Assembly (NCBI RefSeq): GCF_009905215.1 | Contig: NZ_CP047593.1 | Span: 930,001-994,000 of the forward strand | From: Tichowtungia aerotolerans | GTDB lineage: Bacteria; Verrucomicrobiota; Kiritimatiellia; Kiritimatiellales; Tichowtungiaceae | DNA: 64,000 nt | Reading direction: 5' to 3' | Shown here: piece by piece, positions 23,897 through 39,971 of the stretch | Numbering within the stretch: position 1 is the first letter of the stretch | Layout of the letters: every line of letters begins with the position of its first letter | Position numbers and translations under genes: made by a program | Notes under the pieces: generated by a model | Databases searched by the model: none | What the model saw: only the letters and a program-made list of their open reading frames with translations | Told to the model about the DNA's origin: nothing

Positions 23897-24970
23897 ATGT
23901 CTAAAACCTATAAAATTACACTTCTGCCCGGCGATGGAATCGGGCCGGAAGTGGTTGCTGAAAGTGTCAAACTGCTCGATGTCATTGCCGAGAAGTCTGA
24001 CTTTTCGTTTGAGTACACCGAAGCCCTCGCCGGCGGCGCAGCCATTGACGCCAGGAACGATCCGATGCCGCAGGAAACCATTGACGCCTGCAAAGCGTCC
24101 GACGCCGTCCTGCTCGGAGCAGTCGGCGGACCGAAATGGGACGATCTCACCGGCGCCATGCGTCCGGAGTCCGGCCTGCTGAAAATCCGCAAGGAACTGG
24201 CCGTGTTTGCCAATCTGCGTCCGGTGGCCGTTCCGCCGTCGCTGGCAGAGTCCTCTCCGCTGCGCCCGGCCGCCGTCATCGGCGTCGACCTGCTGACCGT
24301 CCGCGAACTCACCGGCGGCATCTACTTCGGCCAGCCGGTCGGCAACGACGGCAACGAAGCCTTCAACACCATGCGCTACAGCGTCGAAGAAATCGAACGC
24401 GTGGCCCGCGTGGCGTTCGAATGGGCACGCAAACGCCGCAACAAAGTGACATCCGTTGATAAAGCCAACGTACTGGAAGTCTCCCGTCTCTGGCGTGATA
24501 CAGTAAAGGCCCTGCACAAAAAGGAATTCTCGGATGTCGAGCTCGACCACATGTATATCGATAACGCAACCATGCAGATGGTGATTAATCCGCGTCAGTT
24601 CGACGTCATCCTGACCGGCAATATTTTCGGCGATATTCTTTCCGACACCTCCGCCACACTCGGCGGATCGCTCGGGCTGCTGCCTTCCGCCAGCCTCGGA
24701 AAAGGCACCGGACTGTTTGAGCCGGTTCACGGATCGGCTCCCGACATTGCAGGACAGGGCAAAGCCAATCCGATCGCGATGATTCTTTCCACCGCGATGA
24801 TGCTCGACGATCTGGGCGAAGGAAAAGCCGCGACCGCTGTCCGACAGGGGCTCGAAGCCGCGCTCGGCCACAACCTTCGTACCGCCGATCTCTGCCACGA
24901 AGGATATACCCCGGCATCCACCTCAGAAATGGGAGAACTGATCCGCACCGAAACACTGCGGCATCTTTAA
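23897..24970 (+). CDS. leuB: 3-isopropylmalate dehydrogenase
   Basis: 357 residues, full length. Oxidative decarboxylation of 3-isopropylmalate in leucine synthesis, NAD+ and Mg2+ dependent. L-L-P-G-D-G-I-G-P-E-V opens the protein. E-S-G-L-L-K-I-R-K-E-L and D-K-A-N-V-L-E-V-S-R-L-W hold substrate-binding residues. N-I-F-G-D-I-L-S-D carries the metal aspartates, and the NAD site is H-G-S-A-P-D-I-A-G-Q-G-K-A-N-P. ATG 23897 follows AGAAGGAAT. No other leu gene is nearby. A terminator follows directly. Confidence 0.95.
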   Translation: MSKTYKITLLPGDGIGPEVVAESVKLLDVIAEKSDFSFEYTEALAGGAAIDARNDPMPQETIDACKASDAVLLGAVGGPKWDDLTGAMRPESGLLKIRKELAVFANLRPVAVPPSLAESSPLRPAAVIGVDLLTVRELTGGIYFGQPVGNDGNEAFNTMRYSVEEIERVARVAFEWARKRRNKVTSVDKANVLEVSRLWRDTVKALHKKEFSDVELDHMYIDNATMQMVINPRQFDVILTGNIFGDILSDTSATLGGSLGLLPSASLGKGTGLFEPVHGSAPDIAGQGKANPIAMILSTAMMLDDLGEGKAATAVRQGLEAALGHNLRTADLCHEGYTPASTSEMGELIRTETLRHL

Positions 24971-24983
24971 TCGACCAGCCCTC

Positions 24984-25021
24984 ACACCCCGCATTTCTGT
25001 CTCAGAATGCGGGGTGTTTTG
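24984..25021 (+). terminator. Intrinsic terminator after leuB
   Basis: Twelve-base stem ACACCCCGCATT / AATGCGGGGTGT with a ten-base loop, followed by TTTTG. Starts 13 bases after the leuB stop. Confidence 0.9.
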
Positions 25022-25081
25022 TATCTACGCAAAAAGTCGGGATCTCTACTACGCCCCCGCATCAAACGACGTTTTGCGATA

Positions 25082-25101
25082 TTTTCCCAAGGCTTGGAAA
25101 A
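25082..25101. repeat. Dispersed palindrome copy (expanded left arm)
   Basis: TTTTCCCAAGGCTTGGAAAA, intergenic, 84 bases from the next copy. Confidence 0.7.
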
Positions 25102-25165
25102 AATTCCAGACATGGAGGGACCGCATCCTCGCGGGCCGGGCTCTGGGGACCTCGCCCGTCCCCCA

Positions 25166-25184
25166 ATTCCAAACCTTGGAAAAG
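25166..25184. repeat. Dispersed palindrome copy (exact core)
   Basis: ATTCCAAACCTTGGAAAAG. The ACC centre makes it the reverse orientation of the common GGT form. Confidence 0.75.
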
Positions 25185-25358
25185 GCCTCCTGCGAATCAG
25201 AAAAGTCCAGCCTGAGCAGGCGGTTCGTTCACTGCAGGCAAACGGCAGCAGGCTTCTAAAAACAGAATCGGACTGCGGCCTATTTTCACAAAATCATGGG
25301 TGGAAAAATCATATGTACCCCGCATTGCGGCAATGCTCGAACAACCCAAAACATTAAT

Positions 25359-25700
25359 TCAATAGGACCGATGCCTTCGCCACCGGATGTGTCGGCTCCA
25401 GAGCGCGGCATCCGCCCAACCCAGATTAACCACATCAACCAGCAGAATTTTTAATGCGCTGACCATCTGAATCATCTGCCAGTCCTGCAGAGAGTCATTG
25501 CGGCCTAACACATTCAGGTACTGATCGAGATAGGCCGCATCGACTTCGCATAATTTGCGCCCTTCAAGACCATACACAACCTGCTGAGCACGGCGCGCCG
25601 TCCATTCCGCCGCATATCCGGAAAGGCCGTGTTTATTCACTGAATCAGCATAACGACCCCAAAACACAGACTCTTTACCGGTCATTTTTCTTTCAACCAA
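25359..25700 (-). pseudogene. Truncated integron integrase (N-terminal core-binding domain only)
   Basis: 113 residues resembling the SAM-like core-binding domain of tyrosine recombinases: F-W-G-R-Y-A-D-S-V, W-T-A-R-R-A-Q-Q-V-V, then D-Q-Y-L-N-V-L-G and Q-M-V-S-A-L-K-I-L-L. It stops at R-R-H-R-S-Y, before any catalytic R, HxxR or Y, and no continuation is visible downstream on this strand. Orientation and position fit intI exactly: it diverges from the cassette array and its 5' end is 87 bases from the first cassette junction. The family call rests on a weak domain resemblance plus this context; it could be a remnant of another tyrosine recombinase. Confidence 0.55.
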
Positions 25701-25793
25701 CCTTTCAAAAAGGTAAGCTACCTATCACATAAACAACACTGGCTTAAAGAAAGAAATAGGTCGCAAACAATGCGACCTAATCCACTGTTCGAG
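25701..25793 (+). other. Probable attI site with a 9-bp hairpin
   Basis: The first cassette junction is GTTCGAG (25787-25793), whose complement CTCGAAC is the R'' box of the first cassette's attC. Upstream, TAGGTCGCA (25757-25765) and TGCGACCTA (25771-25779) form a perfect hairpin. The interval between the integrase 5' end and this junction is where attI and the cassette promoter are expected; I cannot define promoter boxes with confidence. Confidence 0.55.
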
Positions 25794-25801
25794 AACAAAA
25801 T

Positions 25802-26098
25802 ATGAAACAGGATCAAAACAAATTAAGTCTGAGCGCGAAACTGGCCAAAGGTTTTTTGTCCGGAGGAGAAAACTCCAAGATATTCTCCGTACTGTTCATG
25901 ATTATTGCACTTGCATGGTTCATCCTTGGCATCAAATACGATCAACCTAAGAATCTTATCTTCGCTACTGCTTTTGGAATGATTGCTCTCATTTGGTTTT
26001 TGAAAGCGGGCTGTACAGAACTGCTTGAGAAGTTATACACAAAAAAGGACTCGAACCAGAAAGTTGAACTTACGGAAAACCCCGGTGGTGATTTTTAG
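25802..26098 (+). CDS. Cassette 1: small membrane protein
   Basis: 98 residues. Basic N-terminal region, two hydrophobic segments (about residues 31-45 and 56-70) and a polar tail. The final residues N-Q-K-V-E-L-T-E-N-P-G-G-D-F are encoded by the attC site itself, and the same tail ends the protein of cassette 6. Starts nine bases after the attI junction without a strong ribosome site, as is common for first cassettes. No family recognised. Confidence 0.65.
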   Translation: MKQDQNKLSLSAKLAKGFLSGGENSKIFSVLFMIIALAWFILGIKYDQPKNLIFATAFGMIALIWFLKAGCTELLEKLYTKKDSNQKVELTENPGGDF

Positions 26099-26164
26099 AA
26101 TCACAAGTTCGCACCAAACGGAAGTCGGCACGGCCTTTTCCGAAGCTCACTTTTGACGTTCGCT
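26050..26164 (+). repeat. attC site 1 (115 bp)
   Basis: R'' CTCGAAC (26050), nine-base spacer, L'' GAACTTACGG, apical stem, L' CCGAAGCTC, R' GTTCGCT (26158). L'' has an extra A relative to L', the extrahelical base expected of attC. Nearly identical to the sites at 28380 and 31250. Confidence 0.85.
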
Positions 26165-26170
26165 AGCAAT

Positions 26171-26587
26171 ATGAGTATAAAACTAAAAATAGGAATTGGC
26201 CTCCTTGGTGCGGCGATAATCGTTCTGCTGATAGTTTTGTGCACACCTATACAGGGAACATCTAAGCAGTATGCTAGGCGTGTACTTTTCCCTCGCGCAA
26301 CAAAAGCTGATATTGTGGCAATCAATACAAGCCTAGATCAGTACCGAATTGATACAGGCGCATACCCTGACCAGTTGTTGAACCTATCTCAAAACTCTGG
26401 CGCTAAAAATTGGAATGGGCCATATATACGTGAAAACAAACTGTCCGACCCGTGGGGACAACCGTTCCATTATGAAATAATCAATAACATACCAATTGTA
26501 GTATCGCGAGGACCTGATGGGGAACTATGGTCACCTGATGATATTGAAACAGCATTAAGACAAAAACTAAGCGAACCAATCAAGTGA
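26171..26587 (+). CDS. Cassette 2: membrane-anchored GspG-like (pseudopilin-type) protein
   Basis: 138 residues from ATG 26171 (the frame is open further upstream but runs into the attC). An N-terminal hydrophobic helix (about residues 6-22) is followed by A-T-K-A-D-I-V-A-I-N-T-S-L-D-Q-Y-R-I-D-T-G-A-Y-P. Then come G-P-Y-I, D-P-W-G-Q-P-F-H-Y and S-R-G-P-D-G-E, the C-terminal fold of type II secretion major pseudopilins. The usual prepilin peptidase motif (G-F-T-L-I-E) is absent, so it is probably a stand-alone membrane-anchored relative rather than a secretion component. Confidence 0.8.
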   Translation: MSIKLKIGIGLLGAAIIVLLIVLCTPIQGTSKQYARRVLFPRATKADIVAINTSLDQYRIDTGAYPDQLLNLSQNSGAKNWNGPYIRENKLSDPWGQPFHYEIINNIPIVVSRGPDGELWSPDDIETALRQKLSEPIK

Positions 26588-26654
26588 CCCTACGTGATGA
26601 CCCGGTCGGTCAAAATTGAACCACAAGACACGAGGGTCCTCTCAGACGTTCGCT
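26570..26654 (+). repeat. attC site 2 (85 bp)
   Basis: R'' AGCGAAC matches the cassette's own start GTTCGCT (26158); nine-base spacer; L'' GACCCTACGTGA pairs with L' ACGAGGGTC with one extra A; R' GTTCGCT at 26648. Overlaps the last codons of the GspG-like gene. Confidence 0.85.
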
Positions 26655-26662
26655 GAAATAAA

Positions 26663-27013
26663 ATGAAAACAAAAAATATAGCATGGGTTCTCCTGAGTAT
26701 TCTGGCATTAGCGGTTGTATGTGGCATCACTCTTTCAGCCCTGAAAAAAAGAAAAGTCAACAAAGAGTTTGAGCGACAGGTGATTCAATCATTTGAGAAT
26801 GACATCGAGCTTCAACGACAATTGGCCATGCAAAGCATCACGAATAACACTGAGTGTTCTTATTACACCCATGCCGTCTTCCCAGAAGAGACGATCTGCG
26901 ATATTGCAAACATGTATGGTGTGTCACAAAAAGAAATCATGAGCATTAATAAGATCACCGATGGGGCGCATCTTAAACCAGGAACAGTTCTAATGATTCC
27001 AATTAAAAATTGA
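26663..27013 (+). CDS. Cassette 3: membrane-anchored LysM-domain protein
   Basis: 116 residues. N-terminal hydrophobic anchor (about 8-25), a charged helix, then one LysM module: Y-T-H-A-V-F-P-E-E-T-I-C-D-I-A-N-M-Y-G-V, I-M-S-I-N-K-I, and L-K-P-G-T-V-L-M-I-P. LysM binds N-acetylglucosamine-containing glycans such as peptidoglycan, so the product is probably a periplasmic wall-binding protein. Low GC compared with the backbone. Confidence 0.82.
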   Translation: MKTKNIAWVLLSILALAVVCGITLSALKKRKVNKEFERQVIQSFENDIELQRQLAMQSITNNTECSYYTHAVFPEETICDIANMYGVSQKEIMSINKITDGAHLKPGTVLMIPIKN

Positions 27014-27025
27014 GAATATAACCAC

Positions 27026-27109
27026 AGCGAACAAATCAAGTGAGCCTACGTGATAACGCCCGTCGCCCAGATGAAGCACACTTCACGAGGCTCCTTTCAA
27101 ACGTTAGAA
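27026..27109 (+). repeat. attC site 3 (84 bp)
   Basis: R'' AGCGAAC complements this cassette's first bases (GTTCGCT at 26648). L'' GAGCCTACGTGA pairs with L' TCACGAGGCTC, one extrahelical A. R' is GTTAGAA at 27103. Confidence 0.87.
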
Positions 27110-27460
27110 GGACCGACGGGGTTAAACCTCTGGTGGGGAACCGGTAATGATTGTTAAGGGGCGCACAAGTTGAGTAAAAGTTGTTTGAGTGGTAATCTTA
27201 AAATCCCGGCGGCATAACGGAGTTGATGGCGACCGGGATTTTAAGATTACCGCAACGTTGAAAGGTACTAATTGAATTTTTTTGTGCGGGGCGACTGGAA
27301 CAGCGTCACGTAGAAACTGTGCGATGCGGGGAAGCACACAATGGAGTCGAACTTGAAGCGCCCCCGTCGCTCCAAGTTCTAACAATGGCATGCAGCTGAC
27401 CGGGTTGACATTGGATTGATTCAGGCGAAGCTGGCCGCCCGGCAGCTGATGCCTGTTACG
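27104..27460. other. Cassette 4: no recognisable gene, large inverted repeat
   Basis: No plausible plus-strand gene. The dominant element is a perfect 19-base inverted repeat, GGTAATCTTAAAATCCCGG at 27191-27209 and its complement at 27233-27251, around a 23-base loop. An outer arm CGCACAA (27162) / TTGTGCG (27282) brackets it, spanning 127 bases. It may be a structured RNA, a small non-autonomous element, or a terminator. The cassette ends with its own correct attC. Confidence 0.6.
27191..27251. repeat. Perfect 19-bp inverted repeat in cassette 4
   Basis: Stem of 19 pairs and a 23-base loop containing GGCATAACGGAGTTGATGG. No T-run follows, so a simple terminator is less likely. Confidence 0.85.
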
Positions 27461-27466
27461 TTGGCA
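27377..27466 (+). repeat. attC site 4 (90 bp)
   Basis: R'' TTCTAAC complements GTTAGAA at the start of this cassette. CAGCTGACCGGG pairs with CCCGGCAGCTG, leaving an extra A. R' is GTTGGCA (27460). Different in sequence from the other sites but with the same architecture. Confidence 0.82.
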
Positions 27467-27475
27467 GCAAAAAAT

Positions 27476-27946
27476 ATGAAAAATTTAATTCCAGTAATAA
27501 CACTGATCGTTGGAGTCGGAATCGGATGGGGAATTGCGACCTACCAATCCCGTTGCGCATTCCAAGAAATACAGAAAACGTGGACTCCTGAGTTTCGGGA
27601 ACTGGTGACGCAAAGCGTCTCCATTGGAAAAACAATGACGAAAGACGAACTGCAGGAACTGCGCAAGTTCGCAATCAAAACGGGAAGCAAAAAGGTCACT
27701 GACCTGAACTCTCAAGCTTATGCAGAAGCAAAGCACGCCTTGCTGATGAAGAAATTGATCGAGAATGGGGAGGTGGATGAGGCCCTTTCGTATTCCTTGT
27801 CCTGCCTAGGACGTTTTATAGAGCAATACGACCGAGGTGATTTCGAAAATGACATTAACGAAGAACTGGCAGACAAGCTGGCAGATCACATAAAATCTGC
27901 CAACCAGTGCCCACACTCTATCACCGCCTCCGGCGGTTCAGAGTGA
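27476..27946 (+). CDS. Cassette 5: single-span membrane/periplasmic protein, unknown
   Basis: 156 residues from ATG 27476, ten bases after the cassette junction. One N-terminal hydrophobic segment (L-I-P-V-I-T-L-I-V-G-V-G-I-G-W-G-I-A) followed by an all-helical charged domain. The middle (A-Y-A-E-A-K-H-A-L-L-M-K-K-L-I-E-N-G-E-V-D-E-A) is suggestive of a helical repeat. The coding end runs into the attC (S-A-N-Q-C-P-H). No family recognised. Confidence 0.6.
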   Translation: MKNLIPVITLIVGVGIGWGIATYQSRCAFQEIQKTWTPEFRELVTQSVSIGKTMTKDELQELRKFAIKTGSKKVTDLNSQAYAEAKHALLMKKLIENGEVDEALSYSLSCLGRFIEQYDRGDFENDINEELADKLADHIKSANQCPHSITASGGSE

Positions 27947-27961
27947 TGCTGATCGTTGGAA
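27898..27961 (+). repeat. attC site 5 (64 bp, short type)
   Basis: R'' TGCCAAC complements GTTGGCA at this cassette's start. Inner stem CACTCT / AGAGTG and apical ACCGCC / GGCGGT. R' is GTTGGAA (27955). Confidence 0.8.
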
Positions 27962-27969
27962 TCACATAG

Positions 27970-28428
27970 ATGAAAATTTATTTAAAAACATTACGATGGT
28001 GTATCGGGGCGGCTGTTCTTCTGCCACTAATTCTCGCTGTTCCCAAAATCTATCCTCAGCTATACCTGCTCATGAACCCGCTGGTTTATTTTTGCGCCTA
28101 TATCGCACTTTTCATCTGGGCAGGAGCAAAAGCATCGCAGGCAAATTATTCAATAATTCATTCTGCATTTGCTGGCACAGCAGTCTTGTTGGTCTCCCAG
28201 ATAGTAAACACACCACTACGATTTATTTTTTCGGCTACAGCAGCAACAGAAACCAGACCCCCATGGGGCATCGCAATCCATGCCAGCCTTCAGTCTATCC
28301 TTGTTTTTTGTTTCTGCTTCCCGATTGCTCTAGGATTTTCAGCATTAGGTGCATATTTAAACTCCGGTAAAACAAAAAATTCCAACCAGAAAGTTGAACT
28401 TACGGAAAACCCCGGTGGTGATTTTTAA
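27970..28428 (+). CDS. Cassette 6: four-span membrane protein
   Basis: 152 residues with about four hydrophobic segments (roughly 13-28, 40-55, 66-85 and 108-130). The C-terminus N-Q-K-V-E-L-T-E-N-P-G-G-D-F is encoded by the attC and is identical to that of cassette 1. No known family; the layout suggests a small inner-membrane protein. Confidence 0.6.
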   Translation: MKIYLKTLRWCIGAAVLLPLILAVPKIYPQLYLLMNPLVYFCAYIALFIWAGAKASQANYSIIHSAFAGTAVLLVSQIVNTPLRFIFSATAATETRPPWGIAIHASLQSILVFCFCFPIALGFSALGAYLNSGKTKNSNQKVELTENPGGDF

Positions 28429-28494
28429 AATCAAAAGTTCGCACAGAGCGAAAGTCGGCACGGCCTTTTCCGAAGCTCACTTTTGACGTTGGAA
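28380..28494 (+). repeat. attC site 6 (115 bp)
   Basis: R'' TTCCAAC complements this cassette's start GTTGGAA. L'' GAACTTACGG and L' CCGAAGCTC as in sites 1 and 9. R' GTTGGAA at 28488. Confidence 0.85.
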
Positions 28495-28501
28495 TTGAAA
28501 A

Positions 28502-29041
28502 ATGATCTATCAACCAATTATAGCTAATGCAGGCGTTCCAATGATCGCCTTAGAAATGCCGTTGATGCTCATAGCGCTCATTCCGGTTATTGTCGTAGAA
28601 TTATTCGTAGCAAAACGACTCTGTGGGCTAAGCTGGAAAAGGATCACTCTAGGCGTTTCAGCCGCAAACATCGTTTCAACGCTCATAGGGGTTCCTTTGT
28701 CGTGGGGCCTCATGCTTGGATTACAATTGCTCACCACAGGAGGTGGCGGGTACAGCGGCCCTCTTGCGATGCTCGTAGCTGTTACCGTACAAGCGGCATG
28801 GTTACTTCCGTATGAAGAGCATTTAAACTGGATGGTTCCGACAGCAATGATGGTGCTATTTATTCCCGCCTTTCTTATTTCGGTTTGGTCAGAACGCCTT
28901 TTATGTCAGCTCTTTTGGAAGGACACCGAGCGAACAGTCATCAAAAGGGCTGTTTGGATTTTCAATTTGGTTTCATACGGGATATTAACGGCAGGGGTAT
29001 TTATTTGGCTGATGATTTCTATCACCTCAAAAACAAACTAA
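28502..29041 (+). CDS. Cassette 7: multi-span membrane protein
   Basis: 179 residues with about five hydrophobic segments. An amino-terminal L-M-L-I-A-L-I-P-V-I-V-V-E segment precedes a basic stretch (A-K-R-L-C-G-L-S-W-K-R), then spans with a Gly-rich loop (T-T-G-G-G-G-Y-S-G). The E-x-x-x-A-K-R-x-x-G-x-x-W layout recurs in uncharacterised membrane proteins. I cannot name a function. Its attC is interrupted immediately after the stop codon by an IS110-family element. Confidence 0.6.
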   Translation: MIYQPIIANAGVPMIALEMPLMLIALIPVIVVELFVAKRLCGLSWKRITLGVSAANIVSTLIGVPLSWGLMLGLQLLTTGGGGYSGPLAMLVAVTVQAAWLLPYEEHLNWMVPTAMMVLFIPAFLISVWSERLLCQLFWKDTERTVIKRAVWIFNLVSYGILTAGVFIWLMISITSKTN

Positions 29042-29058
29042 TTCCAACCAGCCATCTG
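29042..29058 (+). repeat. attC site 7, left part (split by IS110 element)
   Basis: R'' TTCCAAC (29042) complements the cassette's start GTTGGAA, followed by CAGCCATCTGA. The sequence then enters the IS element. The partner half, carrying ATGGCTGG and an R'-like GTT, is on the far side (30466-30527). Confidence 0.7.
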
Positions 29059-29059
29059 A

Positions 29060-30465
29060 GGATGTCCGTCAACATAAAAACTGACTTTCAATCGGCCCGT
29101 TGAGCCTTATAGCATCGGGGTGTTCTGCAATAATCTTCCATAAATTCGACCCGCGTTTTTTAAGGACGCTGAGGTAATGCAGTTCGTCGTACGGAACCCG
29201 CTCTTTCCAGCATTTATAGAGGATGCGTATCCACTTGTATGCCAAGGCGCGAACTGCCTGATGATGTCCCATTCCCCTTTCGCGCGCCTGGATATAAAAC
29301 GCACGTGCCCAGATGGAATGCTTTGTGGTTTCGCCAGCCCATTCATGAAAACTCTGACGAATAAAGTTCGAACACTTCCATCGCCGGTGTATCCATTCGC
29401 TCTTTCCACTGCGCTCGGTGACCGGCGCCATGCCGGAGTAGTTCTCCAGATCCAGAGCAGAACCAAACCGCTCCCGGTCGGTTCCCAGTGCCGCAATCAG
29501 TCGAGGTACAAACACCCGACCCGTGGCCGGGAAGCTGGAAATAATCTGTGCATCCTCATGATCGGTATAAACCTGATAGATGTGTTTGTCGTAGTCCCGA
29601 ATGCTTTTAAGCAGATCCCGCAGCTGAACGACTATGCTCAAAGCTTGTCGGCTGTAACAGTCGATGATCACCTCATCGGTCGTAACCGGCACGGCCTGTT
29701 TAATCTGCTCCAGACGCTTTTCAATGGTCTGCATATAGCGACTGCTGTGGCGGGTGTAGAAGCTCTTTACACTTGAGCGTTGCGCTCGTTTTAATGACTC
29801 GAGAGTTGGCCAACGTTCAATAAAATCGAGAGCCAGCTTTTCATTAAGCTTATCCCCGGCCACCTTGCAGGCCAATGGATAGTAGGTTTTCAGACAGGAT
29901 CGCAGTTCATTGGTCAGCTTTACGCGCAGGTCAACCAACTTGCGCCGATGTTCGCACAGCAGCATCAATCGGCGGGTTTCCGGTGTATCCGGTTTCCACG
30001 CCGTCAGCTTATAGTTTGAGTCGCGAACGATCTCCATAATCAGTTCGGCATCATCCGGGTCATCTTTGGCCCCGCTCGGGCTCCATGCATCACGCATCTT
30101 TGCCACGGTGGATGGATGAACAACAAATACGGTTATGAATCCGCAGTTCATTAACTGATAGGCAAGGGCTCCTTTTTTCTGCTCAAGACCAATCGCAATC
30201 TGCCGGTTAGGATAACGCTCGCGTAAAGTAATCAGCCACTGCTCAATCACCTCCGGTCGATGTTCAACCTGAGAAAACTCTGTCGATTCGGAATCGGCAT
30301 CCCACAGACAGAGGTCATGCTTCAGATCCGCCCAGTCAAACCCGATGACCGCCGCAAAACGCTTTGCTTGATTTTTCATCCTGCACTCCTTTCATTTTTA
30401 CTGGCGGAACACGCTGGCTTCGAACCTGCGAAAGACTTATAGTCGGTCATGATCTGACGACATCC
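29060..30465 (-). mobile_element. IS110-family element (IS1111-like), inserted in an attC site
   Basis: About 1.4 kb with one transposase gene. Subterminal inverted repeats: GGATGTCCGTC at the left (29060-29070) and GACGACATCC at the right (30456-30465). No target duplication is expected for this family. IS1111-group elements that target attC sites are known, and the placement between the two halves of an attC fits that habit. Exact ends are inferred from the repeats. Confidence 0.75.
29069..30379 (-). CDS. IS110-family transposase (DEDD)
   Basis: 436 residues, full length. The N-terminal RuvC-like catalytic part has G-F-D-W-A-D-L-K-H-D (first Asp), I-G-L-E-Q-K-K-G (Glu) and A-K-D-D-P-D-D-A-E-L (final Asp pair). 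The C-terminal transposase_20 part contains I-S-S-F-P-A-T-G-R-V and G-M-A-P-V-T-E-R-S-G-K-S, with the family's conserved Ser. Shine-Dalgarno AAAGGAG precedes the start. Appears intact. Confidence 0.92.
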   Translation of the reverse strand: MKNQAKRFAAVIGFDWADLKHDLCLWDADSESTEFSQVEHRPEVIEQWLITLRERYPNRQIAIGLEQKKGALAYQLMNCGFITVFVVHPSTVAKMRDAWSPSGAKDDPDDAELIMEIVRDSNYKLTAWKPDTPETRRLMLLCEHRRKLVDLRVKLTNELRSCLKTYYPLACKVAGDKLNEKLALDFIERWPTLESLKRAQRSSVKSFYTRHSSRYMQTIEKRLEQIKQAVPVTTDEVIIDCYSRQALSIVVQLRDLLKSIRDYDKHIYQVYTDHEDAQIISSFPATGRVFVPRLIAALGTDRERFGSALDLENYSGMAPVTERSGKSEWIHRRWKCSNFIRQSFHEWAGETTKHSIWARAFYIQARERGMGHHQAVRALAYKWIRILYKCWKERVPYDELHYLSVLKKRGSNLWKIIAEHPDAIRLNGPIESQFLC

Positions 30466-30675
30466 GAGTATTCGTTGTCGGTCGAAGCACACCGGCGAGG
30501 TCGAATGGCTGGTTTCAAGCGTTGCTGCGCTGATCAAGTCAGGTTCGTACCAAGCCGGTGCGTGCCCCTCGGGGCAAAACTAACATGAAAAAGGAACAAA
30601 AATTGAACTCAGGCAGCCTCCACTCAGAGCGTTCGCTTCGCTCTCCGCTCCGGCTGCCGGAATTACAAGTGGAAT
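30466..30675. other. attC 7 right part and a gene-less cassette 8
   Basis: 30466-30527 holds ATGGCTGG (pairing with the left part), GGTCGAAGCACA as in other attC sites, and GTTGCTG (30521) as a poor R' box. The following 150 bases contain no plausible gene. A GGCAGCC / GGCTGCC inverted repeat lies at about 30612-30660. Either a non-coding cassette or one damaged by the IS insertion. Confidence 0.5.
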
Positions 30676-30759
30676 ACCTATAAGTCAAGTGAGCTTACGT
30701 GACACTCCGGGTCGATCCGGTCGAAGCACAAGGCACGAGGGTCCTTTTAGGCGTTAGAT
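30676..30759 (+). repeat. attC site 8 (R'' degenerate)
   Basis: L'' GAGCTTACGTG (30691) and L' CACGAGGGTC with GGTCGAAGCACA between, closely matching sites 2 and 3. R' GTTAGAT at 30753 is a consensus GTTRRRY. The R'' box is not conserved, consistent with loss of the parent cassette's end. Confidence 0.78.
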
Positions 30760-30778
30760 GTAGTAAGAAAGGAGAAAT

Positions 30779-31255
30779 ATGGGCACATCCGACTTAGCAA
30801 AAGAAGCACTGAGAATCGCAGGTACAGCAGGCCTAAGCAAAGATGTCATTGATTTGCTCAAAGAAAAAATCAACCTGCTAGACGAAAAAGTTGATGATCT
30901 AACCAGTGAAAATTCCTCATTAAAATCAGAGAACTATGACTTACGAAAACAATTAGAGTCTCTTCTGGAATCGCAGTCTGATGGCACCTCTAAACCTGAA
31001 GGTTTTGACGATACGACCGACGCTATTCTAAAATTATTCTTTGACGTCCATGATTCGATTCCTGCCGAACTAATTGCTCGTGAACTAAACATTCAAACAT
31101 CAATTGTGAGGTATCACTTTGACCTGCTTTCTGAACACGACATGATTAGACGAATGCAGGGAGGAACGCGAGGGTTTGTCTCCGGAGTTGCATCTCCAGC
31201 TAAATACGGATTGTGTAAGGCAGGGCGAGAGTATGTGGTAAAAAATCTCATCTAA
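30779..31255 (+). CDS. Cassette 9: coiled-coil plus winged-helix protein
   Basis: 158 residues. Residues 22-66 form a strong coiled coil (L-K-E-K-I-N-L-L-D-E-K-V-D-D-L repeating). Residues 78-140 read as a winged helix: I-P-A-E-L-I-A-R-E-L-N-I-Q-T-S-I-V-R-Y-H-F-D-L-L then G-F-V-S as the wing. A DNA-binding regulator or antitoxin-like protein is plausible. It has its own Shine-Dalgarno (AAGGAGA), unlike most cassette genes. No partner gene in the cassette. Confidence 0.75.
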   Translation: MGTSDLAKEALRIAGTAGLSKDVIDLLKEKINLLDEKVDDLTSENSSLKSENYDLRKQLESLLESQSDGTSKPEGFDDTTDAILKLFFDVHDSIPAELIARELNIQTSIVRYHFDLLSEHDMIRRMQGGTRGFVSGVASPAKYGLCKAGREYVVKNLI

Positions 31256-31364
31256 CCAGAAAGTGGAACTTACGGAAAACCCCGGTGGTGATTTTTAAAA
31301 TCAAAAGTTCGCGCAGAGTGGAAGTCGGCACGGCCTTTTCCGAAGCTCACTTTTGACGTTCATA
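31250..31364 (+). repeat. attC site 9 (115 bp)
   Basis: R'' ATCTAAC complements this cassette's start GTTAGAT (30753). L'' GGAACTTACGG, L' CCGAAGCTC, R' GTTCATA at 31358. Third near-identical copy of the 115-bp type. The stop codon of the cassette gene lies within R''. Confidence 0.87.
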
Positions 31365-31680
31365 TGGCTGAAGCTTTGTCAACAAGGCAAAAAAAGTTCA
31401 GACCCACATTTCCCAATGTTTGGGAAAGGGTCTTCCGATCGTTCCCGGGGGCCGGAAGAGCGCACGCAGGGTGAGCGGTTGTTTCCGCATGCAGGGTATG
31501 CTCATATCCGTGGACTGGGTACCACATTTTCTTTGATCACCGCGGCCTTGTTCTTTGTCTGGGTGGCGAGCACTCACCGTTGCCCCGTCAGGCATTCATG
31601 GCTTAGCTCATAACGTTCATCAAGTACCGGCCTCTGCAACTCTCGTTTCCGTACCCCCGGGTTCGATTCTGGAAAAAGTT
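31365..31680. other. Distal end of the cassette array, no clear gene
   Basis: A 36-codon frame starts at ATG 31366 and a longer TTG-initiated frame ends at 31613; neither is convincing. Contains a palindrome copy (31408-31428) and an R'-like GTTCATC at 31615 preceded by GGCTTA, as in classical attC L' boxes, but no L'' or R'' partner. It may be a decayed last cassette. Confidence 0.4.
31408..31428. repeat. Dispersed palindrome copy (expanded symmetric arms)
   Basis: TTTCCCAATGTTTGGGAAA: arms carry an extra C/G but remain perfectly symmetric, a compensatory change that supports selection or copying of the fold. Confidence 0.75.
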
Positions 31681-32685
31681 TTATCCGACGATCTTCGCCA
31701 GATCCCAAATATATGAGGAGAGTTCACGGGCAACGGCAACCCGGATTTTGTTCGGGTGCATTCCCCGGAAGATCAGTTTATTCCAGCGTTTGTTTAATCG
31801 ATTCTGGGCATGCCAGCTGATGATTTTCACCTCCCGAGAAAGCCCTTCCTGACGCACGGAGAGTCCTTTGGCTATTTTGGGCGGCTTTCGATAATGCTCG
31901 GCTGATTCAACCAGCATCCAACGCGCGTGAGAGTTGCCGCACTTGGTAATGGAGCCCTGTCGTCTTCGGCCACCGGAGGAGTCCTCCGATGGAACCAGCC
32001 CGAGATAGGCCATTAGCTGTTTGGGATGTTCGAATCGACCAAAGTGTCCGATTTCGCTGACGATCACCATCGCCGCTGTTCGTTTAAAACCCTTGAACCC
32101 CATTAGAGCTTCGACCAGTGGCTTGCGAGACCAGGTCTGTAAAAGGGCTTCCATCTGCCCGTCAATGCGTTCGACCTGTTTGACTGCAAAATCGATCCGT
32201 TGAAGATACTCTTCCAGAACCACTTTTTGCGCTGGATCGGCCAGTACAAGTTCCCGCAGGTAACGCATGTGCGGCTCGCCCCAATGAGCTTTCCCTTTGT
32301 AGCGGTATCCATTCCGAAGCAAAAAGGAGAGCAGCTGTTTCTTCGTCCGGGCCATGGAGTTGACCGCATCGGTTCGTCCCCGGCATACATCGCGGATCAC
32401 CTCGTCTTCGACGGAAAGAATATGAATGCCTTCCAACTCGCCGGCACGATAGGGCCGTGCGAGCTTGCGGGCGTCGCGTCGGTCCGTCTTGACCCGATCG
32501 CCGGACTGCGTCGGGATCTTCGACGGCGCAACCACAATGCACTCAAACCCCAGTTTAATAAGACGTCTTGCCAGTACGAACCCTGTCGGTCCCGCCTCGT
32601 AGCACAGCGCCATATCCTCCTTCGCCAGCTCATACTTTTTCATGATCCGCCGCAGCACTGCCTCAAACGCTTTCAAAACACCCAT
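31681..32685 (-). pseudogene. IS110-family transposase, N-terminally truncated
   Basis: 334 residues beginning G-V-L-K-A-F-E-A-V-L, then C-Y-E-A-G-P-T-G-F (Glu motif), V-A-P-S-K-I-P and D-R-V-K-T-D-R-R-D-A-R-K (Asp motif). The C-terminal half (A-L-M-G-F-K-G-F-K-R-T-A, Y-L-G-L-V-P-S-E-D-S-S-G) is complete. The first catalytic Asp (normally within the first ~20 residues of a ~380-400 residue protein) is missing, and a stop codon directly precedes the first Met in frame. Distinct subgroup from the other IS110 copy. Probably inactive. Confidence 0.78.
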
Positions 32686-32815
32686 TTAAGAGATGGGGGT
32701 CCCACCTTATGGCCTTTGCCGCCGAAGTTTGTTGCCGCGCTCGCTGGTGTGAGCGCTCCGCCATTGCATGGGCAGGATCCAGCAGGAAACGATGAAGCGG
32801 TTCAAAACGCTCCTG

Positions 32816-33466
32816 CTAAGGCGTGCCGCCGGAGGCTTTATGCGCCGTGAAATAGATCATCGCCGCGACAGCCGCCAGAATCAGCAGCAGACACACCATA
32901 AAAACAGAAAACACCTCAAGCTTCTGGATCCGCTCACGCTTCCAGCAAGCCAGCTTTTCGCGCCAGCCGATTTTCACCGGCACCGGCCTGGGAACATCCA
33001 GATGTACAAGTTCGGCACGCCCGAAGGATGCATCGCGCCACCGGCCTGAAATATTCAGCACAGCAAAAGATGCAAACTTCAGCTTGTAGACATCCGCATT
33101 CACAAGGTGATGCAGCATGGAACTCATGGCGGGATCGTGCCCAACCAGCATGACCGTATCCAGTTTGTCATCCAGGAGATGGACAACCCGCAGGATTTCC
33201 CGTTTCTCCGCTTCGAACAGGTCTTCATTCACCTGCATCTGATCGCGCGAAAGCCCCACCTTTCTGCCGAAAATCTCAGCGGTTTCACCGGTCCGGCGGG
33301 CCGGGCTGGTGACAATCAGGTCCGGCACAATATTCAGTTCGGCAAACCGGGCGGCCACGGCCTGCAGGTCACGACGGCCTTTGCGCGTCATCGGACGGCC
33401 GATATCGGGCACAAAAGGATCTTTGTGCATAAACTCGCCATGTCGAACCAGAATCAGTGTTTTCAT
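32816..33466 (-). CDS. SixA-type histidine phosphatase with C-terminal membrane anchor
   Basis: 216 residues from ATG 33466, chosen because the family's L-I-L-V-R-H-G-E opening then lies at the N-terminus. The RHG motif gives the catalytic His, and V-G-H-D-P at about residues 112-116 gives the second. R-K-G-R-R-D-L-Q and S-P-A-R-R-T fit SixA. After about residue 165 comes a basic linker and a single hydrophobic span (V-F-M-V-C-L-L-L-I-L-A-A-V-A-A-M-I-Y-F), unusual for SixA, implying tethering to the membrane. It ends next to the truncated IS110 copy. Confidence 0.85.
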   Translation of the reverse strand: MKTLILVRHGEFMHKDPFVPDIGRPMTRKGRRDLQAVAARFAELNIVPDLIVTSPARRTGETAEIFGRKVGLSRDQMQVNEDLFEAEKREILRVVHLLDDKLDTVMLVGHDPAMSSMLHHLVNADVYKLKFASFAVLNISGRWRDASFGRAELVHLDVPRPVPVKIGWREKLACWKRERIQKLEVFSVFMVCLLLILAAVAAMIYFTAHKASGGTP

Positions 33467-33504
33467 AGCGTGCCTTGCTACAATAAAGCGTTCTTCAATG
33501 CACG

Positions 33505-33537
33505 AAAAAACGCTTCGAAGAACCCCCTCGAAGCGTT
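33505..33537 (-). terminator. Intrinsic terminator after the glycine betaine operon
   Basis: Ten-base stem AACGCTTCGA / TCGAAGCGTT, nine-base loop, and an A-run on the left that becomes a U-run on the minus strand. Located 24 bases beyond the substrate-binding-protein stop. Confidence 0.88.
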
Positions 33538-33560
33538 TTCCAGATGCCAACCTGGCGAGT

Positions 33561-37920: not shown

Positions 37921-39852
37921 CTATTTTACAGCCGCGCCGCTGGCCGGAAGTTCGCCATCAACGGTGATCAGACGAAGCTCTTTGCCGACCGACGCACACA
38001 GCAGCATGCCCTGGGATTCAACGCCGCGGATTTTGGCCGGCTTCAGGTTGGCGACAATCACAATTGTTTTTCCGACCACCTCTTCCGCGCTGTAGTGCTG
38101 GGCAATACCGGCGATCAGCTGGCGTTTTTCTTCGCCGACCTCCACCTGCAGCTTGAGCAGCTTGTCCGCACCTTCCACTTTTTCAGCTTCCAGAATTTTG
38201 GCTGTGCGCAGTTTCACGTTCATGACATCGTCGTAGGTGATAACGCCTTCGGGCTTTTCCTGTTTCTCAGTCACTGCATTTTCCTTTTCAGATGGTTTCG
38301 GCGGCTTCTCTTCTTTCGGCAGCTCCACCCTCGGGAACAGGGGATCCGTTTTCGGGACCTCGCTCCCGGCTTTAATGACCCCAAACACGCGGAGGTGTTC
38401 CATATCGGGCATGCCAAGACCAAACAGCGTACGCAGTTCTCCCATGCGCTCAGGCATGACGGGATACAGCAGCGCAGAACTGACACGCAGCGCCTCAGCC
38501 GCCACTGCCAGAGTTGTTTCCACCTCTTCCGTCCTGCCCTCTTTCGCGAGGGTCCACGGCTGTTTGATTTCGAAATACTGGTTCACCTTGCGGACGGCGG
38601 CGAGCACCGAAGCAATGCCGCCGTTCAGGTGCATGGAGCCGATACTCGCTTCCATGTCCGTCACCGCCTGCTGCACGGCATCCCACAGTTCTTTTTCAGG
38701 ACCGTCGGCAACAGCATCGTTTCCAATGGCTGGAAATTTCCCGTCACAATAGCGTCCCAGCATGTTGGAGGTGCGGCTGAGCAGGTTCCCGAGGTCGTTG
38801 GCGAGATCTGAGTTGTAACGACGCACAAAGGCTTCCTCCGTGAAAGAGGCATCCTGTCCGAGCGTCATTTCCGCAATCAGGAAATAGCGGAAGGCATCGA
38901 CGCCGTAGCGGTCAATCATTTCCATGGGGTTGACCACATTGCCGAGACTCTTGCTCATTTTGGTGCGACCGGTCAGCCACCATCCGTGAGCGAAAACCGT
39001 TTTGGGCAGCTCAACCCCCATGGCCTTGAGCATGGTCGGCCAATAGACAGTATGCGTGGTGAGAATATCCTTCCCGATCAGCTGATGATTAACCGGCCAC
39101 CATTTTTTGAACATGTCGTCATCGGATTTATAGCCAATGGCGGTGATGTAGTTCAGAAGCGCATCGAACCAGACGTAGGTGACAAAATCGCTGTCAAACG
39201 GAAGCTCAATGCCCCACGCCAGACGGCTTTTCGGACGGGAAATACAGAGATCCTGAAGCTCATTGTTTTTCAGGAACCCGAGCGTCTCGTTGGCACGGAA
39301 ATCGGGCTGAATGAATTCAGGATGGGTTTCGATGTATTCGATGAGCCACTGCTGATAGTGGCTCATCCGGAAAAAATAATTGGTTTCGACGATGGCATCG
39401 ACTTTTCGCCCGCACTCGGGGCAATTGCCCTCAACGAGATCTTTTTCCGTAAAGAAGCGTTCGCAGCCGACGCAGTACCACCCCTCGTACTCTGCGCGAT
39501 AAATTTCATCACGATCATAGAGATCCTGAAGAACCTCCTGCACAATCTTTTTGTGGCGATATTCGGTGGTACGAATGAAATCGTCGTTGGAGATTTCGAG
39601 CCGTTTCCAGAGTTCCTGGAAGCGCACCACCGTCTGGTCGCACTGCTCCTGAGCACTGATTCCGTTTTTCTCCGCCGCCTGCTGCACTTTCTGCCCATGC
39701 TCATCCGTGCCGGTCAGAAAATAGGTCGGCGTTCCAAGCAGGCGGTGGTAGTTAGCCAGCACGTCCGCAAGAATCGTAGTGTACGCATGGCCGATATGCG
39801 GCTTGTCGTTCACATAATAAATCGGGGTGGTAACGTAATATTTGGTATCCAT
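37921..39852 (-). CDS. metG: Methionyl-tRNA synthetase
   Basis: About 643 residues from ATG 39852 (a GTG three codons upstream is also possible). H-I-G-H at about residues 17-20 and K-M-S-K-S-L-G-N near 297 are the class I signatures. The zinc insert shows C-V-G-C and C-P-E-C. The C-terminal ~105 residues are an EMAP/Arc1p-like tRNA-binding domain (V-M-N-V-K-L-R-T-A-K-I-L-E-A-E) joined through an acidic-basic linker. A palindrome copy at 38720 encodes K-F-P-A-I-G-N. Confidence 0.96.
   Translation of the reverse strand: MDTKYYVTTPIYYVNDKPHIGHAYTTILADVLANYHRLLGTPTYFLTGTDEHGQKVQQAAEKNGISAQEQCDQTVVRFQELWKRLEISNDDFIRTTEYRHKKIVQEVLQDLYDRDEIYRAEYEGWYCVGCERFFTEKDLVEGNCPECGRKVDAIVETNYFFRMSHYQQWLIEYIETHPEFIQPDFRANETLGFLKNNELQDLCISRPKSRLAWGIELPFDSDFVTYVWFDALLNYITAIGYKSDDDMFKKWWPVNHQLIGKDILTTHTVYWPTMLKAMGVELPKTVFAHGWWLTGRTKMSKSLGNVVNPMEMIDRYGVDAFRYFLIAEMTLGQDASFTEEAFVRRYNSDLANDLGNLLSRTSNMLGRYCDGKFPAIGNDAVADGPEKELWDAVQQAVTDMEASIGSMHLNGGIASVLAAVRKVNQYFEIKQPWTLAKEGRTEEVETTLAVAAEALRVSSALLYPVMPERMGELRTLFGLGMPDMEHLRVFGVIKAGSEVPKTDPLFPRVELPKEEKPPKPSEKENAVTEKQEKPEGVITYDDVMNVKLRTAKILEAEKVEGADKLLKLQVEVGEEKRQLIAGIAQHYSAEEVVGKTIVIVANLKPAKIRGVESQGMLLCASVGKELRLITVDGELPASGAAVK
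38720..38737. repeat. Dispersed palindrome copy (one mismatch), inside metG
   Basis: TTTCCAATGGCTGGAAAT, read on the minus strand as F-P-A-I-G-N, the F-P-x-(L/I)-G frame also used in murJ. Confidence 0.65.
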
Positions 39853-39971
39853 ATCCCGCACAGAATATAGATTCCTGAAAAACTTTCCAGACTTAGCAGA
39901 CAGTTTCTCTCCGGTCGGTCATCAGGCAGAACCGCTCGGATCGACCGCCACAGAACGGCTGATCAACCGGA

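Follow-up and report, generated by a model that had tools for sequence, protein, structure and literature searches.

The open reading frame (ORF) at positions 25359-25700 of the window (the whole stretch of 64,000 nucleotides analysed here) is, as its homology shows, what remains at the 5' end of a gene for an integron integrase (intI), and the array of cassettes next to it is most likely still shuffled in trans, because intact integrases are encoded on the same chromosome and one cassette of the array (C4) is nearly unchanged at two other loci. The explanation that we regard as probable in its entirety (an inserted integron, a truncated intI, and service in trans by paralogous integrases) runs as follows. 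The insertion of a chromosomal integron of the type with an N-terminally extended IntI separated leuB from the gene after it; the intI of this integron lost, or arrived without, everything past codon ~120 and is left as a pseudogene incapable of recombining DNA; the attI and attC sites have remained intact; and recombination at the array would be carried out by two near-identical IntI proteins encoded next to the same attI core, together with a third IntI. The evidence comes from the sequence of a single genome, the host of the window (one contig, C1, of 3.88 Mb, 98.4% complete), with related genomes for comparison. It directly shows the truncation, the intact paralogues, the conserved attI, the matched R boxes, an insertion where relatives have none, and near-identical C4 copies at three loci that are bounded by core sites; that the integrases are expressed, act on the attI and attC sites of the window and moved C4 after the loss of intI, we infer from it. 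The parts of the locus to the left of the array, and the extent of the whole, are:

24970-32816, no strand assigned: the whole insertion, between leuB (which ends at 24970) and a phosphohistidine-phosphatase-like gene (32816-33550; named by reading)
25384-25700, minus strand: the 5' intI remnant, with codons ~1-100 in frame, a net deletion of ~31 bp at ~25411, codons ~112-120 out of frame, and then the break
25701-25789, plus strand: attI, with the crossover G^TT at 25787 and a 9-bp palindrome at 25757-25779

The 113-codon ORF reported in the first-pass annotation exists on the minus strand of 25359-25700, with a TTG start. Its length alone is not significant, an equally long open run being found in 167 of 2000 single-base shuffles of the 25.0-25.8 kb region; its homology is. 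The search against its own genome returned four matches, namely the ORF itself, two at 79% identity within complete 459-aa frames (E-values 1.9e-52 and 1.8e-51, aligned to residues 2-105) and a weak one (E-value 0.12). At the DNA level, the remnant together with attI is 88% identical to the intact copies over 381-396 bp. The intI homology occupies 25384-25700, to which the coordinates of the gene are trimmed here, and extends through attI to about 25790; the in-frame part (codons ~1-100) corresponds to 25412-25700, positions 25384-25410 add 27 bp of intI that are 96% identical but no longer in frame, 25359-25383 lies outside intI, and left of 25383 there is unrelated DNA as far as the leuB terminator (24984-25017). 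Codons ~121-459 are gone, including the canonical core-binding (Pfam, 148-228) and catalytic (246-445) domains, in agreement with the earlier statement that no catalytic domain is visible. The assignment to the start of a tyrosine recombinase, in the place and orientation of intI, was likewise borne out by the full-length IntI homologues, and with attI directly upstream the fragment has the features of an intI pseudogene.

The profile searches with the ORF itself gave no family in Pfam and none in NCBIfam at an E-value of 1 or less, the TIGR02249 profile of integron integrases included, and nothing of note among PDB sequences. The first-pass annotation had named a profile search without any relation to tyrosine recombinases as grounds for abandoning its reading; literally, this is the outcome for Pfam and NCBIfam, yet the full-length homologues establish the relation, and both libraries are blank because they do not model the N-terminal extension to which the fragment belongs.

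The genome search for a complete IntI and the comparison of N-termini, which had also been proposed, revealed the two 459-aa proteins mentioned above. Their genes form two intact intI-attI units (L005 6338-7807 and L007 13156-14625) that are 99.86% identical over 1470 bp. They are alike from the attI core to ~14 bp after the intI stop codon and have different sequences to either side, which looks like the copying of a module. The intact IntI matches TIGR02249 over residues 148-459 (E-value 6e-127; 423 bits, with a cut-off of 265), comprises the Phage_int_SAM_4 (148-228) and Phage_integrase (246-445) domains, and matches IntI4 (2a3v) from residue 150, while no family was matched by residues 1-147. 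Since the family matches start only at residue 148, the window fragment corresponds to an N-terminal extension and not to the usual N-terminal domain. What had been called the N-terminal domain of the integrase is thus the start of intI, as claimed, but an extra domain ahead of the standard core-binding one. The third IntI of the chromosome (~327 aa, 50% identity) is devoid of the extension. In a whole-genome search with the 459-aa IntI, the remnant was the sole match inside the window. Elsewhere, a 101-bp C-terminal intI remnant at C1:2892473-2892572 (L028 7473-7572), 90% identical to the intact copies, adjoins an IS3-like transposase gene and a purN-like gene (names by reading). We considered it as the lost 3' part of the window intI, which is possible, but nothing ties it to the window locus, and the candidate was dropped.

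The extension is widespread: among the best 80 of at least 569 relatives obtained from the genome-contig search, 29 align with the query from its residue 23 or earlier, mainly those from Gammaproteobacteria and Desulfobulbales. Modelled with the help of 17 extension-bearing relatives, the window fragment is all-helical (pLDDT 83), and in structure it comes closest to the core-binding domains of IntI4, XerA and Cre (VIA-align: IntI4 (2a3v) residues 1-101, Z 10.1; XerA, Z 9.9; values of Z below about 13 are common for helical bundles). All of the first 26 rows of the VIA-align result are tyrosine recombinases or their N-terminal domains, the next row having a Z of 5.3; the Foldseek E-values are weak (0.12). 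When the extension was compared by hhalign with the canonical core-binding domain that follows it in these proteins, the probability was 69% (E-value 4.4e-5, 87 columns, 13% identity), and in the model of a full-length relative the two form separate helical blocks joined by a low-confidence linker at residues 110-136. The likeliest reading of these models is a tandem arrangement of two core-binding domains, and the likeness of the extension to such a domain may also be a general helical resemblance. The literature searched for the fold of the long-IntI extension (PMC3414803 and PMC2426708 were returned) yielded no discussion of it in the parts covered.

Analysis of the genomic neighborhood in related genomes shows that the integron at leuB is an insertion, because leuB directly adjoins the far-side gene in six of the ten relatives. 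In the genus search leuB was found in 12 of 14 genomes (own included), and its region was read in ten relatives, an eleventh (G001) being left out. In the six, leuB is followed by the homologue of the 32816-33550 gene within 24-327 bp; in the other four this gene was not found next to leuB, which is followed in G005 by a homologue of the window gene 37921-39861, in G008 by only ~460 bp of sequence, and in G009 and G012 by none of the window's next genes. An integron at leuB is absent from all ten of these regions. Up to the crossover, the 36 bp of the attI core do not differ between the window and the two intact integrons of type A, and the core is recognisable and partly conserved in relatives; the 9-bp palindrome of attI (25757-25779) seems in some of them to persist with changed letters (attI of G009 compared with that of G006). 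Of the 394 bp on the left side of the break, only a 39-bp stretch recurs in the genome, and they are unlike the sequence that flanks the intact intI genes on the 3' side. The truncation may have happened during the insertion or after it, and the break may mark either a deletion that came later or the place where the inserted DNA ended from the start. A promoter scan gave no excess over shuffled sequences (7 vs 7.9), and Rfam returned nothing relevant.

The array comprises eight cassettes with matched R boxes, listed here with the z-scores of bottom-strand attC folding:

25787-26158, plus strand: C1, 98-aa ORF at 25802-26098; attC at 26050-26163; R box of 7 nt; z -2.5
26158-26648, plus strand: C2, T2SS G-like pseudopilin at 26153-26587 (Pfam T2SSG, E-value 1.4e-14); attC at 26570-26653; R box of 7 nt; z -3.6
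26648-27103, plus strand: C3, LysM protein at 26663-27013 (Pfam LysM, E-value 3.6e-9); attC at 27026-27108; R box of 8 nt; z -0.9
27103-27463, plus strand: C4, no plus-strand ORF of at least 60 aa; R box of 7 nt; attC fold z -2.4; RNA fold z -5.3
27460-27955, plus strand: C5, ORF at 27416-27946 without a family; R box of 8 nt; z -3.1
27955-28488, plus strand: C6, 152-aa ORF at 27970-28428; R box of 8 nt; z -4.3
28488-29048, plus strand: C7, 179-aa ORF at 28502-29041; R box of 9 nt; attC split by an IS110-family element immediately past its R'' box
30680-31361, plus strand: attC of an interrupted cassette (30680-30757, by attC similarity), followed by C8
C8 itself, plus strand: 158-aa ORF at 30779-31255; attC at 31250-31363; R box of 8 nt; z -0.9

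In all eight cassettes the R'' box is the exact complement of the cassette's own start over 7-9 nt, while only 4 of 56 mismatched pairings reach 7, so that the earlier description of an orderly array with well-preserved boxes holds. Bottom-strand folding of attC has a z-score of -2.3 or lower in five of seven sites and lies near -0.9, little better than shuffles, in the other two (C3 and C8). The attC sites of the window array are 91-99% identical to those of other arrays, and those of C1, C6 and C8 are 92-96% identical to attC sites in the arrays of the intact integrons.

Two transposase-bearing elements lie in or at attC sites of the array:

29046-30500 (right end approximate), minus strand: IS110-family element in the attC of C7, transposase at 29069-30379 (NCBIfam NF033542, E-value 5.4e-45)
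31356-32683, minus strand: second element, abutting the last attC, ORF at 31681-32685, IS110/IS1111-like by reading of the ORF

The first of them starts right after the R'' box, like the attC-targeting IS110/IS1111 members known as the IS1111-attC group (described in a part of PMC11187229), although it is assigned here by the match of its transposase family only. Its sole other copy in the genome, at C1:1035280-1035801, is partial and 100% identical, and both share the left end directly after an attC R'' box. The second element recurs at C1:12258-13585 and C1:1042220-1043547 (99.5% and 96%), there also starting at an attC core site, and is either another attC-targeting IS with a long non-coding part or an IS-carrying cassette. 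A further cassette at 31361-31630, common to two other loci, was considered and dropped, as this segment may equally be the non-coding part of the adjoining element. Altogether, the two IS-like elements suggest some decay of the array.

The cassette C4 provides the principal sign of movement. Its copies at C1:1059288-1059645 and C1:1392016-1392375 have one mismatch each to the window copy in ~360 bp, and the similarity stops exactly at the core sites, with unrelated flanks. The former copy stands first, at the attI end, in the array of the third integrase; near the latter, no IntI was found in the 16-kb stretch that was read. C4 is absent from all 13 other genomes of the genus. In Vibrio, some cassettes that lack a gene have promoter activity (according to a part of PMC11014356), and the scan found no promoter-like site in C4. 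Other arrays of the chromosome share sequence as well: an array at C1:~873 kb, for which no IntI was found, has 593 bp in common (96%) with that of the third integron. The latter array also contains two copies, 100% identical, of a 299-bp stretch (L029 3355-3653 and 4673-4971), another sign of recent cassette movement. Regardless of the direction in which C4 moved, these arrays took part in at least one recent exchange.

The remnant itself offers a rough clock. Its Ka/Ks against the intact copy (0.27 over 92 codons) is comparable with the values for the remaining pairwise comparisons within the set of these sequences and the two nearest relatives (0.19-0.31), and most of its divergence therefore arose under constraint. 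The ratio on its own branch is 0.55 (95% interval 0.19-1.50), compared with 0.14 (0.03-0.32) for the intact copy, with a codon-bootstrap P of 0.98 that the former is higher, which suggests that a substantial share of the branch passed without constraint; the polarised Fisher test of relaxed selection was not significant (synonymous/non-synonymous changes: remnant 1/8, intact copy 3/4, ambiguous 9/3; p 0.26). In the tree, the long branch of the window remnant (row W) is inflated by the inclusion of about eight out-of-frame residues. The earlier suggestion that the loss may be recent is thus loosely supported, by the overall Ka/Ks, and countered by the relaxed appearance of the branch. The exchange of C4 looks younger than the loss of intI, because the copies differ by ~0.3% while the own branch of the remnant carries ~15 changes in 276 nt (~5%). 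The loss probably predates the exchange, and we infer with moderate confidence that cassettes moved after it, bearing in mind that 92 codons give a rough clock with wide intervals.

The alternatives for the array had been stated at the outset as frozen or served in trans by another integrase, and the near-identical C4 copies favour the latter, which we prefer by a clear though not overwhelming margin. A frozen array, in which nothing has moved since the loss of intI, the boxes have had no time to decay and the other C4 copies come from elsewhere, is the less probable but still appreciable alternative. It agrees with the presence of the IS-like insertions, with truncated intI accompanied by stable arrays in Xanthomonas (reported in a part of PMC12444791) and with the fact that, among the array stretches compared, C4 is the only window cassette found nearly unchanged elsewhere; in that case, the two further copies of C4 could have been acquired from another strain. 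Two intact integrases with the same attI core on the same chromosome, and C4 copies only one mismatch away, argue against it and for the service in trans.

Could the remnant be a working small protein, whose core-binding-like domain would still attach to att sites or to partner integrases and reduce recombination? Its ~100 codons in frame, the model (pLDDT 83), whose fold recalls that of the IntI4 and XerA core-binding domains, and the overall Ka/Ks would fit, but the purifying signal can date from before the truncation, the branch estimate is relaxed, the tail is frameshifted and the search of the own genome revealed no free-standing homologue, so that we regard this as very improbable. Still more improbable, to the point of being negligible, is an assembly artefact at 25.36-25.38 kb, where the near-identical intI copies of the genome could have confused the assembler: the remnant differs by 12% from both copies up to the break, which makes a misassembly from them unlikely, and has an internal deletion of its own, while the genome is a single contig in which the left flank occurs once.

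Compared with known systems, the locus resembles CALIN (clusters of attC sites lacking an integron-integrase), which have been proposed to be degraded integrons (in a part of PMC9024848) and can be mobilised in trans (parts of PMC12444791 and PMC11389934). It shares with them several attC sites and cassettes without a functional integrase in cis: its eight cassettes exceed the two or more clustered attC sites by which CALIN are recognised, and the only neighbouring integrase gene in the window is the remnant. It differs in that an intact attI and the 5' part of intI are still in place, and for this reason it is better described as a pseudo-integron than as a bare attC cluster. Truncated or frameshifted intI genes have been described by Nemergut et al. 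2008 (PMC2426708, in the part available), with nearly one third of intI being pseudogenes, more than one intI in a fifth of bacteria, and many pseudo-integrons read as intragenomic duplicates of a functional copy; in contrast to nearly identical duplicates, the window remnant is ~12% diverged in DNA from the intact paralogues. The same part of this source describes long IntI proteins of clade 15, ~120 aa longer through gene fusion. The intact IntI studied here (459 aa, with ~145 aa ahead of the IntI1-like part and relatives in Desulfobulbales and Gammaproteobacteria) would belong with them by length and taxa rather than by sequence comparison. Truncated intI and integrase-less arrays mobilised in trans are therefore already known, and the window locus is ordinary in kind; a literature search combining Kiritimatiellae, integron and attC found no paper.

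We tentatively speculate that the chromosome may harbour a distributed integron, in which the two 1470-bp intI-attI modules and the third integrase act in trans on several arrays, three or more of which have no integrase themselves, a cassette that has no gene but folds strongly moves from one array to another, and the second core-binding-like domain could bear on att recognition. The likeness of the extension to a further core-binding domain leads to a testable hypothesis about how long IntI recognise their sites. The locus represents a natural case for testing whether paralogous integrases keep integrase-less arrays alive, as both are found on the same chromosome with the same attI core, and the almost unchanged cassette in three places provides a handle for dating it.
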